Origin: a virus
IMG/VR virus record: IMGVR_UViG_3300045136_000451
Location: 1-31,531 of that record
Strand: one strand, 5' to 3'
Length of the DNA stretch: 31,531 nucleotides
Shown here: positions 6,544 through 30,090 of the stretch, one piece after another
Layout of the letters: each line of letters begins with the position of its first letter
Position numbering within the stretch: the stretch's first letter is position 1
Translations under genes and position numbers: made by a program
Notes under the pieces: generated by a model
Database searches by the model: none
Seen by the model: the letters and a program-made list of their open reading frames with translations, nothing else
Told to the model about the DNA's origin: nothing

Positions 6544-9500
6544 GGTTCGTCGTCCCAGCCTTCGATGCGCCGCACGCCGGCGCCGAGCGAACCACGCCGC
6601 ACCGGCCGGGGTGGTGCCGCCGCCGGCTCCGCCCCGGTCACGTCCAGCACGAAGGCGCGGCCCGGGTTTCGCCCGTCCTCCACCTCGAACGCGCCGTAGC
6701 GCAGCACATACCGACCCGGGCCGATGGCCAGCGCCTGGAACCCGCCGCGCGCCACCATCTCGGGCGTGATCGGCCGCCCATCGGCGGCCCTTGCGCCGTC
6801 GAGCCTCTCGGGCGGCAGGGCCGACATCAGCGCGCGGAAGCGCGCCGCGTCCATGCCGGGGGGCAGCACGGTCACCCGCCCGCCGAACTCGGTCACCGGC
6901 ACGAGCTCGGCCAGCGCGTCGCGCCAGGCGCGGGCGCTGAAGGCCTGCGGCGAGAGGTCGCGGCGCGCGGCGTAGAGCGCCAGCGCCGCGGCCTCTACAT
7001 CCGCCAGCGCCTGCGGCCGCAGCTCGAACGCCTCGCCGAGCGCGGCCTGGGTCGCCGCCGTGCGCTGGGCCGGCGTCGCCGCCGGCAGCGGATTGTCGCG
7101 CAGGAACAGCTGGCCGGCCAGGATGCGCCGCGCCGTGTCCGGCTGCTGCTCGAGCAGCGACGCCGCCACCGCCACCGCCCGGCGGCGGGGTTCCTGCGCG
7201 TCGCCGGTCACGCGGGTGGCCGCCAGCGCGCGGGCCGCCTCCGGCACGCCGATCGCCCCGGTCAAGGCGGACAACGCCTGAAGCGCCTCGTCCGGACCCG
7301 GCGCGTCCAGCACGCGGGCCAGAAGCGGCTCGAGGATGCTGCGTGGCAGCGGCCGGCGCAGCGCCTGAGGCACGCCAAGCCGTTCCTGCTCGGCGGCCAG
7401 CAGGCCGGCCAGGTCGCGCAGCGCCTCAGGCTCGCCCGCCGCGGCGCGCCCGGCCAGGTCGCGGGCGGCGCGCGGCAGGCCGGTCAGCGCATACAGCGCG
7501 GCATCCTCGCGCACGGCGCGGTCGCGGTCGGCGAAGGCGTCGGCCAGCACGCGCACCCGCTCGGCGTTCTCGCGCGCGTCGGGGCCGGCCACGGGCAGCG
7601 CGTCGAGCGCGGCCTGCCGCTCCCCCTCCGGCATGGCCAGCGCCGCCTGGCGCAGCCGCACGCCCTCGGCGCGCAGCGCCAGAGCGGCGTTGATCGCGGC
7701 GCGCCGCTCCGGCGTAATGCCGGCGGCGCGGGCCTCCTCCTCCGAAATCTCACCGGCTTGGCCGGTGGCGGCGGCCTCGGCGTCCAGGTCGCGCACGCGC
7801 TCGTCCAGGGCTGCGCCTGCCACCTGCGCGCCGCGCTGGCGCAGCCTGGCCCGGAGCGCCACGGCGGCGTGCGGGTCGGCGGTGAAATTGGCGGTGCCGG
7901 GCGCGAACTCCTCGGCCAGCCGCGCCAGCTCGGCCGGATCGGTCGTGTCGCGTGCGATGCGCTGGGCGACGAAGGCGGCCCGCGCCGCGCGTTCGCGCTC
8001 GACCAGGCGATCGAGGTCCTCGCCCGCGCGCGCGACAAGCGAGGGGTCGAGCGGCCGCGTCGCCTCGCCGGTTTCGGCAATGGCGGCCAGGTTCTCGGCC
8101 ACCACGCGGTTCAGCTCGGCGCGGGCCTCGGCGCGGCCCTCGGCCCGGATTTGCTCCTCGGCCGCCACCAGGGCGCGCAGCCGTCCTGCGATGCGCGCGA
8201 CGCGGTCTGCGGGCAGGCCGCCGCCGCCACCGGCGGCCGGCAGCAGGGTGGCCAGGTAGTCGCGGGTTTCCTGCGGCAGGCGGCCGTCGCCGGCGATCGC
8301 CCGGTCCACATTGCCCATGCCGTAGTTGTAGGCCGCCAGCGCCAGGCCAAGGTCGCCCTGGTAGCGGTCGCGCAGCCGCGCGAGATACTGCGCCGCCCAG
8401 GGGATGGCGCGCGCCGGGTCGCGCAGCGCGTCCTCGGGCAGCGGCGCCATGCCGAGCCCGGGGTTGCGCGCCGTCTCCGGCATGATCTGCGCGGGCCCGA
8501 CGGCGCCGGCGCGGCTCACGGCATCCGCCCGCCCGCCGCTTTCGAGGCCGATGAGCGCCGCCAGCAGCGCCACTGGCAGCCCGGTCTGCCGCGCGGCCTC
8601 CGCCACCACCGGACGCCAGCTCTCCGGCAGCCGTGCCGCGAGGCGGTCCACCCCGGCCAGCACGCGGCCTTGCGCCGCCTCCCGCTGCGTCAGCGGGCTG
8701 CCGGCCATGCCCCCGGCGTTGCGCTCGAAATCCGCGATCCAGGCATAGCCGCCGCCAACCGCCCGCCTGGCGGCGTCGGCGGCGGCCACGTCGCGCGCCT
8801 CCTCCACCTGCTGCCAGCGTCCGGCGATCTCGGCCGCGCTCAGCACGCCCGCGCGCGACGGGTCGGCGGGGTATTGCCTGTCGCCGATCCTGAACGCCTC
8901 CCGCGGGCCGAGCGCCACCAGCTGCGCCAGGTAATGCTGTTCCTCGGCGCGCAGCGCGGCGGCGGCAGCGGGGTCCGTCACCGCCTGGCCGGCGGCCCGC
9001 TCGATCGCGGCGCGTCGCGCGGGCTCGGCCTCGACGAAGGTGGCCAGCGCGTCATCCGCCAGGCGCCGCCGCAGGCCCTCGCGCACTTGCGCGGAGTAGG
9101 GCAAGGCACGCGCATCGAAGCGCGTCAGGAAGGAGGCGCGGATGGCGGGCGGCAGGCGCTCGGCGGCGCCGTTGCGCCATGCGGCGGCGGCGGCGTTGAA
9201 GCCGTCCGGATCGGCGCGGTGCTCCTCCAGCAGCCTCTGGAGCGTCTGCTCAGCTTCGATTTCCAGGCGCCGCGCCGCAATGTCGGCGGCCGCGCGGTTG
9301 AAGGCGGTGCGGTACAGCACACCGCCCCCCTCCATCTGCGTGCCGGGCTCCGCCTCGCCGGCCACGGTGCCGGCGTTCCACGCGGCCTCCTGCGCCTCGC
9401 GGTCGGCCATGCTGTCCACCGTGGACCTCAGGCCCTCGATGCGGCCGATCAGCCCGCGGGTGATCGCGGTGCCGGATGGGATGTCCGCGCCCGGCGCAAC

Positions 9501-13757: not shown

Positions 13758-14585
13758 TCAAGCCTCCGTGCAGTCGATGCGGATGACGCCCTCGGGGTCG
13801 ATGACCACGCCGCCGAAGCGCGCGCGGATCGAGATCTGCCAGGCCGCCAGGTGCGGAACCCACTCGATGCGGAGCGGCTCCTCCCGCGCGATGGCGAGGC
13901 CCACCGCGTCGGTGTCGTAGGCGAAGCACTGCCGGATGCCGCCGTTGAGCGGCAGGCCGCCCTCGGGGCGGGCCTCGTCCACCAGCAGGATCTGCAGCCC
14001 GTAGACGCTGGGCAGAACGCCGGTGCGGCCGACGGAGCTGTCGCCGAAGTCCTTGTTCTGGGCGATCGGCAGGGAGCGGATGTCGTCATAGACCTTGGAC
14101 GACACCAGCACGTAGCGGTTCTCCCGCGGCACGGCGCGCGCGTCGAACAGCCGCACGATCTGGCGCATCTTCGCGTCGGTCATGCCGGCGCTGCCGTCCG
14201 CGATCGTGGGTGCGCCGAAATTCGCGACGATCTGGTCGATGATCACCTGGTCCTCGCGGCGCCCCAAGGCATTGCCGAGCACCCGGGAGATCACCGGCGT
14301 CTGGTCGAAGCGGACGCGGGTCGCGTCGATGGTGTCCACGTATTCGGTCGCGTCCCACGCCGTCAGCGTGCAGACCGCGGGCGCGAAGGTGGCGCCGACG
14401 CTGACGCGGGGCGTGGCCGGCACATGCGGCACCGCGGCGACGCGGCTGATGCGCGGGAATTGCGCGGTGCCGCCGACGATGCCGGTTTCCACGCGCACGG
14501 TGCGTCGCAGCAGGGCGCCGTTTTCGTAGGCTGCCTTGCAGGCGCTGTCGAAATACGCAGCGACTACGGGATCAAGATCGGGCAC
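13758..14585 (-). CDS. Major capsid protein
   Basis: 275 aa using the GTG at 14585, which is preceded by GGAGG with eight bases between. The frame stays open upstream, but those codons lie in the repeat-containing interval and give an unlikely sequence. The protein has a helical N-arm (DLDPVVAAYFDSACKAAYENG), strand-rich domains and a C-terminal region (WQISIRARFGGVVIDPEGVIRIDC) typical of HK97-fold coat proteins of podoviruses. Gene order (portal, scaffold, capsid, accessory protein, tail tubes) is the main support. It is shorter than T7 gp10 (about 345 aa) but within the range of coat proteins. It would assemble on the scaffold encoded upstream. Confidence 0.78.
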   Translation of the reverse strand: MPDLDPVVAAYFDSACKAAYENGALLRRTVRVETGIVGGTAQFPRISRVAAVPHVPATPRVSVGATFAPAVCTLTAWDATEYVDTIDATRVRFDQTPVISRVLGNALGRREDQVIIDQIVANFGAPTIADGSAGMTDAKMRQIVRLFDARAVPRENRYVLVSSKVYDDIRSLPIAQNKDFGDSSVGRTGVLPSVYGLQILLVDEARPEGGLPLNGGIRQCFAYDTDAVGLAIAREEPLRIEWVPHLAAWQISIRARFGGVVIDPEGVIRIDCTEA

Positions 14586-14665
14586 GGTCTGGCCTCCAGA
14601 AACGAACGGGACAAGCCGCTGTCGCGGCGGGTTCGGTTCGCACCCCGATGGCCAGTCTCGGGCGG

Positions 14666-14818
14666 GGTCCGGCAAAGCGGATGGGCCCACCCGGTTCCGG
14701 GTCGTTCGCGCTTCGGCCGTGCGTGGCCGCCGTCGGCACGATCACCCCGGTCCGGCCAGGCGGATGGGGCAGGGTGACCGCTTGCGGCGGCCTCGGTCCG
14801 GCGAGGCGGATGGGGCAA
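14666..14818. repeat. Three dispersed copies of GGTCCGGCnArGCGGATGGG
   Basis: Copies begin at 14666, 14749 and 14795 on the plus strand and differ only at a few positions (GGCAAAG, GGCCAGG, GGCGAGG before CGGATGGG). On the coding strand they read CCCATCCGCyTnGCCGGACC. Spacings are 83 and 46 bp. The first spacing equals the period of the neighbouring tandem repeat. They lie just upstream of the capsid gene. Possible roles are protein binding sites or remnants of an older amplification. Confidence 0.6.
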
Positions 14819-14909
14819 GGCGCCGCTGCGCCCTCTTGCATGGCACAGCGCGCGCGGGTGGCGTTAGTCAGAAATCGTGAAGTCCTCCCACCGGATGCGC
14901 CGCGTGGCG

Positions 14910-14998
14910 TGTCAAGCCCAACGAGCGCGACTAACCCCCCCATTTAGTCGCGCGGCGCAGGTGACGTCCCCCACCGGACGCGCCGCCTGGCGTGTCAA
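14910..14998 (-). promoter_or_regulatory. Possible tandem promoters upstream of the capsid gene
   Basis: The leftward strand has a consensus -35 hexamer TTGACA in each repeat copy (14998-14993 and 14915-14910). The region 17 bases further on is GC-rich and no good -10 element is seen, so these would need an activator or another sigma factor. The same bases could instead be a binding site (GTGTCAAGC on the plus strand). The placement before the most strongly needed protein makes a promoter plausible. Confidence 0.3.
14925..14953. repeat. Hairpin in tandem-repeat copy 1
   Basis: The arms GCGCGACTAA (14925-14934) and TTAGTCGCGC (14944-14953) are perfectly complementary over 10 bp with a 9-base loop CCCCCCCAT. 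As RNA from the leftward operon the loop would read AUGGGGGGG. The equivalent structure in copy 2 (15008-15036) keeps 9 of 10 pairs. There is no T-run after it in the direction of transcription, so it is not a standard terminator. Confidence 0.7.
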
Positions 14999-15007
14999 GC
15001 GCAACGA

Positions 15008-15036
15008 GCGCCACTAACCCCCCCATTTAGGGGCGC
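15008..15036. repeat. Hairpin in tandem-repeat copy 2, with a compensatory change
   Basis: The arms GCGCCACTAA and TTAGGGGCGC pair at 9 of 10 positions. Relative to copy 1, the G at arm position 5 became C and its partner C became G, so the pair is kept. One neighbouring pair is lost (A opposite G). The same 9-base loop is retained. This pattern suggests selection on the folded form, though one covarying pair is modest evidence. Confidence 0.6.
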
Positions 15037-17870: not shown

Positions 17871-18133
17871 CAGCCGCCAAGCCGGGCCTGCAGCGGCTGG
17901 TCGGCCGTGCCCGTCTCCGCCCCGGCCAGCAGCAGCGCCCGCCCGCGCAGCCGCGCGGCGCGGGCGGCGGCGGCGCTCTGCTCGCGCAGCTTCCGCGCCG
18001 CGTCCTGCGCGGCCAGCCGGTCCTGCTGCTGGCGCAGCAACTCCTCCTGCTGGCGCAGCAACTCCTCCTGCCGGCGCAGCGACGCCTGCTGGGCGCTGGT
18101 GTCGATCTTCGGGGTTCGGAACAGGCCGCCCAT
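17870..18133 (-). CDS. Small coiled-coil protein with heptad repeats
   Basis: 87 aa. After a short head (MGGLFRTPKID) comes a long helix built from repeated seven-residue units (RRQEELL RQQEELL RQQQDRL), then a basic Ala/Arg-rich tail. The DNA shows the same repeat as a 21-bp tandem unit (18026-18081). It sits immediately before the portal gene and overlaps both neighbours by one base. I do not recognise a family. Small proteins with a GGLF..P start are common next to portal or head-completion genes in tailed phages, so a virion role is possible. Confidence 0.62.
   Translation of the reverse strand: MGGLFRTPKIDTSAQQASLRRQEELLRQQEELLRQQQDRLAAQDAARKLREQSAAAARAARLRGRALLLAGAETGTADQPLQARLGG
18026..18081. 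repeat. 21-bp tandem repeat coding for coiled-coil heptads
   Basis: The unit CTGCTGGCGCAGCAACTCCT occurs exactly at 18026 and 18047 (period 21). A diverged third start lies at 18068 (CTGCCGGCGCAGCG). It encodes the LLRQQEE heptads of the overlapping gene. The unit is in frame, so copy number can change without breaking the protein. Confidence 0.75.
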
Positions 18134-29010: not shown

Positions 29011-29228
29011 TGGCGAGCCCCGGACCCGACGGCGCCACCTGCGCCACCTGCCGCTTCTGGGGCGGCCGCCCCGACGGCATCGGCCACAAGCGCGGCCGCC
29101 CGTTCCCCTGCCGCCGGCACGCTCCCTATCCCGCGCACGGCCAGGGCATCGGCTACGCCACGGCCCACACGCCGTTCCACTACTGGTGCGGCGATCACCA
29201 ACCCATCACGACGGAGAATGACCAATGA
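29010..29228 (+). CDS. Small four-cysteine zinc-ribbon-like protein
   Basis: 72 aa from the ATG that overlaps the upstream stop by one base; a GTG three bases before is an alternative. Cysteines 11, 14, 34 and 60 occur as CATCRFWGG ... PCRRH ... YWCGDH. This C-x2-C-x2-W ... C ... W-C-G pattern is shared by many small phage proteins that probably bind zinc. The function is unknown. It resembles the N-terminal layout of the 27713-28150 product. Confidence 0.65.
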   Translation: MASPGPDGATCATCRFWGGRPDGIGHKRGRPFPCRRHAPYPAHGQGIGYATAHTPFHYWCGDHQPITTENDQ

Positions 29229-29539
29229 GCGAAAGCCTAAGGCTTGGCGACGCCGCCTGGGTGTGGATCGACCTGAACGGCCACGGCCCGCGCTGGCACC
29301 TGGCGGTGCCGACCGAGCGCGAGGATTGGGACCTGGTGGACGAGGACGACGACGAGACCTGCCGCTGGCAGGCGCTGTTCCCGCTCTACGACGACTACCG
29401 CTGCGAGATCGAGGAGCTGATTGGCTGCCCCGAGCGGCGCGTGGCCTATCCGCAGACCCCGCCGACGGCGGACGAGCGCGAGAAGGCGCGGCAGGCGGAG
29501 AAGGATCACTTCGGCTTGGAGGGCGACGGGGATGAGTGA
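29225..29539 (+). CDS. Acidic small protein, unknown function
   Basis: 104 aa, very acidic (EDWDLVDEDDDETC), starting at an ATGA overlap. The last 14 residues (EKDHFGLEGDGDE with the preceding residue) are encoded in a 43-bp block that is repeated exactly 325 bases downstream, so this protein and the next one share their C-terminal end. The acidic character would fit a DNA mimic, but this is only a possibility. Confidence 0.62.
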   Translation: MSESLRLGDAAWVWIDLNGHGPRWHLAVPTEREDWDLVDEDDDETCRWQALFPLYDDYRCEIEELIGCPERRVAYPQTPPTADEREKARQAEKDHFGLEGDGDE

Positions 29540-29540
29540 C
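29498..29540 (+). repeat. 43-bp direct repeat, left copy
   Basis: These 43 bases are identical to 29823-29865. The block encodes the end of the acidic protein, and its last nine bases include the start of the DUF4326 gene (ATGAGTGAC). Sequence on either side of the two copies is unrelated. Confidence 0.92.
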
Positions 29541-29864
29541 GCGCCCCGCCGCATCCAGCGCCAGCACGTGAAGGGCTGGCGGATGCCGCCGAACACGGTT
29601 TTCGTCGGGCGGCCAAGCCGATGGGCCAACCCGTTTCGCGTGGCGAAGCCGGAGTGGTCCGAAGACGTCGTCGTGGCTTTATTCAGCGAGCTTTGCGTCC
29701 CGGAGTGGACGCGGACAGGCGCCATCGCGTCGCTGCGTGGCCGCAATTTGGCGTGCTGGTGCCGCCTCGATCAGCCTTGCCACGCTGATGTGCTGTTGCA
29801 ATTGGCGAACGCCCCGCTGCAAGAGAAGGATCACTTCGGCTTGGAGGGCGACGGGGATGAGTGA
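29532..29864 (+). CDS. DUF4326 protein in a repeat-bounded cassette
   Basis: 110 aa. The DUF4326 signature is clear: FVGRPSRWANPF (24-35), LRGRNLACWC (68-77) and QPCHADVLL (81-89). The function of the family is unknown; it is frequent in phages. Residues 97-110 are not part of the domain and are identical to the end of the preceding protein. The base use is less GC-rich than in its neighbours (for example GTCGTGGCTTTATTCAG), which suggests later arrival. It starts within the stop region of the previous gene (ATGAGTGA). Confidence 0.82.
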   Translation: MSDAPRRIQRQHVKGWRMPPNTVFVGRPSRWANPFRVAKPEWSEDVVVALFSELCVPEWTRTGAIASLRGRNLACWCRLDQPCHADVLLQLANAPLQEKDHFGLEGDGDE

Positions 29865-29865
29865 C
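29823..29865 (+). repeat. 43-bp direct repeat, right copy
   Basis: Exact copy of 29498-29540. It supplies the C-terminal codons and stop of the DUF4326 gene and the ATGAGTGAC start of the next gene. Removing one copy with the DNA between would join the acidic gene directly to the 29857 gene with the same overlap as now. Confidence 0.92.
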
Positions 29866-30090
29866 CCACGTCGTTCTGCAGGGATTGGCGGCACGGAGCG
29901 CGAGGAGCGGGCTGGCTACCGGACCGGCCTGGATTTGGCGGTCGCTGGTTTCATTGCGACGGCCAGGGCTGCCGCCGAAAAACTCGAGCCGCGCAAGCGC
30001 TGGGTGCTGCTGACGCTGTTCGCCGAGGCTCACAAGCGCGCCGCCGCAGAGATCCAGGCGCTGGCGGAGAAGGAGGCGGGGCATGGCTGA
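29857..30090 (+). CDS. Small helical protein, unknown function
   Basis: 77 aa starting MSDPRRSAG. One long helical region (YRTGLDLAVAGFIATARAAAEKLEPRKRWVLLTLFAEAHKRAAAEIQALAEK). The start lies in the right 43-bp repeat. Its stop overlaps a short ORF at 30083. No family is recognised. Confidence 0.6.
   Translation: MSDPRRSAGIGGTEREERAGYRTGLDLAVAGFIATARAAAEKLEPRKRWVLLTLFAEAHKRAAAEIQALAEKEAGHG

Follow-up and report, generated by a model that had tools for sequence, protein, structure and literature searches.

A DUF4326 gene between 43-bp direct repeats in a phage operon, probably inserted with duplication of a gene junction

Described insertions at phage gene junctions and the locus studied here

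Gain of a single gene by duplication of a gene junction is a rarely described route in phages. In mycobacteriophage Island3, gene 68, which Brujita lacks, ends in 18 residues that duplicate the end of gene 67 (Pope et al. 2011, PMC3029335); when Island3 and Brujita were re-aligned here, the tail of gene 68 proved to be a diverged copy of that of gene 67, and on the right flank the sequence went on like Brujita. Genes 43-46 of mycobacteriophage LRRHood, compared with Cali, form an insert between 29-bp direct repeats (PMC3029335). Two further systems involve short sequences at gene borders: the boundary-sequence model of phage mosaicism, which invokes short stretches conserved where modules meet (cited in PMC3029335), and the start-associated sequences of cluster K mycobacteriophages, which are 13-bp motifs found at many genes genome-wide (PMC3203893).

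Here we analysed a 31,531-base IMG/VR virus record (the window, i.e., the whole stretch of DNA under analysis). It is a metagenomic contig whose right end truncates an integrase gene, and the tyrosine integrase near the DUF4326 site is of the phage type. In the window, a DUF4326 gene lies between a gene for an acidic protein and a downstream gene (gene 3), and a 43-bp direct repeat brackets it. The arrangement is of a kind already described (Island3 gene 68 and LRRHood; Pope et al. 2011), of which the window is a new, clean and apparently young example.

As in Island3, a single small gene is present or absent between two genes and the tail of the upstream gene is copied (about 50 bp in Island3; 13 residues, within the 43-bp repeat, in the window, whose DUF4326 gene is absent from the related contigs L002 and L003). 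The two cases differ in that i) the Island3 copies are diverged, whereas those in the window are identical at 43 of 43 bases; and ii) the Island3 insert is an orphan gene, whereas that of the window is a DUF4326 gene and its repeat also holds an eight-nucleotide stop/start overlap into the next gene. LRRHood likewise has an insert flanked by direct repeats with a single copy in the relative, but its insert measures 1.35 kb and carries four genes including a repressor. Recombination at a short common sequence at gene boundaries is shared with the boundary-sequence model, but in the window the recipient's own junction is doubled around one gene, rather than a boundary being conserved across many phages. 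The cluster K sequences are also repeated at gene starts, but the 43 bp of the window stand at two adjacent junctions only and include coding sequence. Transposons differ in that the insert of the window carries no recombinase.

Where the stop of one gene overlaps the start of the next, an insertion normally ruins one of the neighbours. When the tail is duplicated together with the translation junction (the ribosome-binding site plus the stop/start overlap), every gene retains a stop of its own and a coupled start. How genes are added to overlapping operons, through boundary homology or illegitimate recombination, is an open part of phage mosaicism, to which the locus adds a clean example, a functional reading of the duplicated part and a countable signature: in-register repeats at adjacent gene starts, which can be counted in thousands of phages.

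The 43-bp repeat and the genes that it closes and starts

The features of the locus are given below by position in the window.

29225 to 29539, plus strand: upstream gene, acidic protein of 104 aa, with homologues in L002 (75%) and L003 (66%)
29498 to 29540, plus strand: left 43-bp copy, the native 3' end of the acidic gene and the start of the next gene, its tail homologous to L002 and L003
29518 to 29522, plus strand: left GGAGG ribosome-binding site, 9 nt ahead of the ATG at 29532, with a similarly placed GGAGG in L002
29532 to 29539, plus strand: left eight-nucleotide ATGAGTGA stop/start overlap
29532 to 29864, plus strand: DUF4326 gene, 110 aa, with PF14216 over residues 12-90 and the repeat-donated tail at residues 98-110
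29541 to 29822, plus strand: insert of 282 bp coding for the DUF4326 domain, missing from both relatives
29823 to 29865, plus strand: right 43-bp copy, a duplicate of the acidic tail that closes the DUF4326 gene, with the native start of gene 3 on its downstream side
29843 to 29847, plus strand: right GGAGG ribosome-binding site, 9 nt ahead of the ATG at 29857
29857 to 29864, plus strand: right eight-nucleotide ATGAGTGA stop/start overlap
29857 to 30090, plus strand: downstream gene (gene 3), 77 aa, beginning MSDPR, with a homologue in L003 (82%) and a gene in the same place in L002 (31%)

The repeat was observed directly: the two copies are exact over 43 of 43 bases at an offset of 325 bp, and the whole block spans 368 bp with both copies included. 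The 43-mer reads GAG AAG GAT CAC TTC GGC TTG GAG GGC GAC GGG GAT GAG TGA C. Each copy encodes the 13-residue tail EKDHFGLEGDGDE with its stop codon and contains the GGAGG ribosome-binding site and the ATGAGTGA overlap; the acidic and DUF4326 proteins have the same 13 C-terminal residues, and the reading frames are preserved. It is the longest exact direct repeat of the window (the runner-up being 25 bp) and was found at two sites only in the 31.5 kb scanned, while the chance expectation for identical 43-mer pairs was about 7e-14. Beyond the copies, similarity ends abruptly, with 12/30 matches upstream and 7/30 downstream (equal to background). The first-pass annotation, made from the sequence alone, had claimed both the exact repeat and its encoding of the two C-termini and of the next gene's start; both claims were confirmed, the former at both positions and the latter with the eight-nucleotide overlap in each copy. 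Its claim that the inserted gene has a less extreme GC content proved weak: at 67.0% the insert does fall at the 4th percentile of the window, but its neighbours are close (69.2% and 68.4%), and GC3 is lower in the downstream gene.

A block duplicated by an assembly error, to which the metagenomic origin of the contig lends some plausibility, is hardly credible. The unit between the copies is an intact DUF4326 gene with its start and end inside the copies, a misassembly would still presuppose a DUF4326 fragment with the same 43 bp on either side, and the same kind of structure occurs in independent contigs and in the isolate phage Island3. This explanation was rejected on the grounds of the intact gene and the comparable structures elsewhere.

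The only gene in the insert is that of DUF4326, and a recombinase is absent. Its product matched the PF14216 profile over residues 12-90 (76.4 bits against a cut-off of 25; E=2.9e-21), and the core motifs GRPSRWANPF and LACWCRLDQPCHADVLL align with 42 relatives. The domain finishes near residue 90, and many relatives stop shortly past "LAN" ("LANx"), without the tail. A structure model had a mean pLDDT of 89.8 (about 95 in the core), and its last ten residues, which lie in the donated tail, had a pLDDT of about 61 and no predicted secondary structure; the model is thus consistent with the 13-residue tail being a passive appendage. A search of the model against solved structures gave no significant match. 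For DUF4326, a rhodanese-phosphatase fold and a role in ADP-ribose phosphate processing in virus-host conflict have both been predicted (PMC9503650). PADLOC returned no match for any of the three genes, and neither did Pfam and PHROG searches for the acidic protein.

With its direct repeat and the single copy at the empty site, the locus has the formal anatomy of a target-site duplication, in which a transposase or another staggered-cut enzyme would have left the 43-bp flanking repeats. We consider such an origin very unlikely: i) the insert is the DUF4326 gene alone, without a recombinase; ii) the repeats lie exactly at gene junctions; and iii) their length differs from case to case (14-43 bp). 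The transposon reading was rejected since the insert holds no mobility enzyme. To our knowledge, no elements make 43-bp duplications.

Two other repeats were noticed in the window. At 14890-15031, near the minus-strand ORF 13758-14690, there are two near-identical copies of ~58 bp (ACCGGAYGCGCCGCSTGGCGTGTCAAG..CTAACCCCCCCATTTAG), 83 bp apart. At 18026-18071, an exact 25-bp match with a spacing of 21 bp (tandem CTGCTGGCGCAGCAACTCCTC...) is probably a short tandem repeat within a coding region.

An empty site in L002 and L003 and the probable origin of the insert

The related phage contigs L002 and L003 were found by searching with the acidic protein, and an alignment query returned the same two. 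Both were observed to have an empty site, with the downstream gene immediately after the acidic gene, and no DUF4326 match is present in either record. The acidic proteins of the two relatives end in a homologous tail (EEDHFG.. and EEREHFG..; EEDHFGPEPEGLPR and EEREHFGSDVEDDA); the tail encoded by the repeat is therefore native to the end of the acidic gene. To the right of the second copy the window reads GATGAGTGACCCACG, and the relatives read likewise (GATGAGCGACCCGCG and GATGCGTGAGCCGCG). Given the native tail and the native right junction, the left copy is therefore the original, the right copy is the duplicate, and the 282 bp between them are foreign DNA. Moreover, GGAGG lies just ahead of the next gene's start in L002, which makes the repeat's ribosome-binding site probably native as well. 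When the flanks were joined, the window-L003 alignment was unbroken across the junction (431 columns, 71%), and when the insert was left in place it fell into two pieces.

We propose, with a probability of roughly 0.8, that a recombination event placed the DUF4326 gene at the junction between the acidic gene and gene 3 and duplicated 43 bp of that junction in the process. The clean insertion suggested by the first-pass annotation is supported by the empty site in L002 and L003; the contrary arrangement, with this C-terminus on both proteins in the absence of repeats, was not encountered, the tail of the relatives being on the acidic protein only. The description of the insertion as recent holds relative to L002 and L003, though not as an absolute date: across this region the window is about 70-71% identical to these relatives while the two copies are identical to each other, which favours a duplication younger than the split.

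The opposite polarity would start from an ancestral cassette of acidic gene, DUF4326 gene and gene 3 with its junction repeats, from which repeat-mediated deletion removed the gene in L002 and L003. Such a deletion is precise and would yield exactly the empty site observed, but two independent losses would be required, the DUF4326 gene is nowhere else in the L002 or L003 record, and copies identical over 43 bp beside ~70-71% divergence would need conversion to maintain an old duplication. We regard this ancestral cassette as improbable, and the sequence comparison favours insertion over loss. The polarity is read from the two copies being perfectly identical, a signal that gene conversion could blur. 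Several observations count against insertion: i) a clean deletion in the relatives leaves an identical empty site; ii) the search found no relative with the same 43-mer, hence neither a near-identical empty site nor a donor; iii) the downstream gene of L002 is merely 31% identical; and iv) the contig is metagenomic.

Wider searches were made for the pieces of the locus. An exact 42-mer search of viral contigs (IMG/VR) gave no match, nor did the gene-3 and acidic proteins against a phage collection or the acidic protein against plasmids. Against bacterial genomes, the sole match of the acidic protein (L084, 18 residues) was rejected as spurious. Relatives were also retrieved with the 28388 gene or the integrase as query, but none of them added a third phage carrying the acidic gene.

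Under the proposed insertion, the ancestor would have had the acidic gene followed by gene 3, with the ribosome-binding site and start codon of gene 3 within the end of the acidic gene. The DUF4326 gene would have entered at this junction, and the same recombination event would have doubled the 43 bp. The left copy would still close the acidic gene and would now also start the DUF4326 gene, while the right copy would supply the latter with a new 13-residue tail and stop and would retain the start of gene 3; none of the three genes would thereby be left without a stop, a ribosome-binding site or a coupled start. For the joins, either phage-type annealing or template switching may have been at work, or homologous recombination with a donor in which the junction was already present. 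Some DUF4326 relatives begin MSD (L008 and L036), which makes ATGAGTGA a possible, and in our view likely, microhomology at the left join; the right join would then have resumed 43 bp behind the left. RecA needs at least 31-34 bp for pairing, and Red-beta 23-27 bp (PMC3945230). As the 43 bp exceed both, once in place they would suffice for RecA or Red-like enzymes to exchange the cassette or delete it precisely; these lengths agree with the suggestion of the first-pass annotation that the cassette could be lost by simple recombination.

In a sub-case of the proposed insertion, the DUF4326 gene would have come by homologous recombination from a donor phage in which the junction already flanked it on both sides, i.e., by boundary-sequence recombination; only the last step differs (as against de novo duplication within the lineage). 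We hold it to be a tenable but less probable course. In its favour, 43 bp is longer than the minimal pairing lengths of RecA and Red-beta (PMC3945230), the right copy in Island3 has diverged from the left as a donor-borne copy would, and the locus L049 has a four-gene chain with the same junction between genes. On the other side, IMG/VR holds no donor with the 43-mer, the closest DUF4326 DNA is ~80% identical over 80-100 bp that cover the conserved motif only, and a donor merely shifts the origin of the duplication elsewhere.

Upstream of the locus, window 27220-29016 matches L003 853-2651 at 96% over 1.8 kb, the match ending where the small gene before 29010 ends. The 29010-29225 gene is missing in L003, and the mosaic boundary at this gene junction is sharp.

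In-register repeats in other DUF4326 loci

A survey was made of 80 viral loci, retrieved by their DUF4326 gene. In these loci, which were thus selected for DUF4326, have crude gene calls and include a few matches that resemble shared ribosome-binding sites, at least 14 bp were common in register to 10 of 870 pairs of adjacent gene starts, compared with 2/4566 distant pairs and 14/59265 cross-locus pairs: such matches were ~50 times commoner between adjacent starts than between unrelated ones. Local repeats were in register with two start codons in 19 of 220 cases (0.01 expected from a shifted gene map). With motif-anchored starts and a bracketing repeat of at least 13 bp, DUF4326 genes were bracketed significantly more often (9/69) than other small genes (8/479; p=5e-5), also when the comparison was with tight-operon controls only (7/297; p=7e-4), which suggests that DUF4326 frequently moves as a passenger by junction-repeat insertion. 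Adjacent pairs with at least 14 bp in register numbered 0 of 170 in a small independent sample and none in four isolate phages; the pattern is therefore rare.

A selected regulatory element, i.e., a translation-start motif comparable to the start-associated sequences of cluster K, could also produce shared sequence at gene starts that is no trace of insertion. The repeat does contain a ribosome-binding site and a start, and weaker matches of the survey (L069, AGGAGGAAGCATGA) resemble shared ribosome-binding sites. Against this, more than 30 bp of the repeat are coding and homologous to the end of the relatives' acidic gene, the 43 bp occur at two sites of the window only, and distant starts of the same loci seldom match. 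A start-associated motif thus has next to no likelihood here, and it was rejected because there are two copies in 31.5 kb rather than copies at many gene starts.

The DUF4326 gene is bracketed by 21 bp in L054 and L083 and by 17 bp in L073, and bracketed genes similar to that of the window were found in L019, L035, L049, L054 and L083. In L019 (54-641), a 75-aa gene between the DUF4326 gene and the next gene has a 31-bp repeat (97%) on its two sides; L013 (4001-4356) is without this gene. In L049 (3568-4283), four consecutive small genes including DUF4326 each start at CCAATGGCTGAT with an eight-base overlap, at spacings of 214, 208 and 274; the four have no visible homology outside their starts, and L049 is possibly an array of single-gene cassettes. 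The survey lends support to the idea, raised by the first-pass annotation and already proposed earlier (PMC3029335), of a route for moving small accessory genes. A broader extension is speculative and, in our estimate, rather doubtful: small accessory genes, notably DUF4326, might travel as single-gene cassettes between duplicated translation junctions and stack into arrays (cf. L049), in an integron-like manner, with phage annealing or host recombination at the junctions as the sole driver.

In L081, an exact 24-bp repeat (6793-6816 and 7964-7987) lies around the starts of two genes; the starts are 1171 bp apart, and the interval contains more than one gene.
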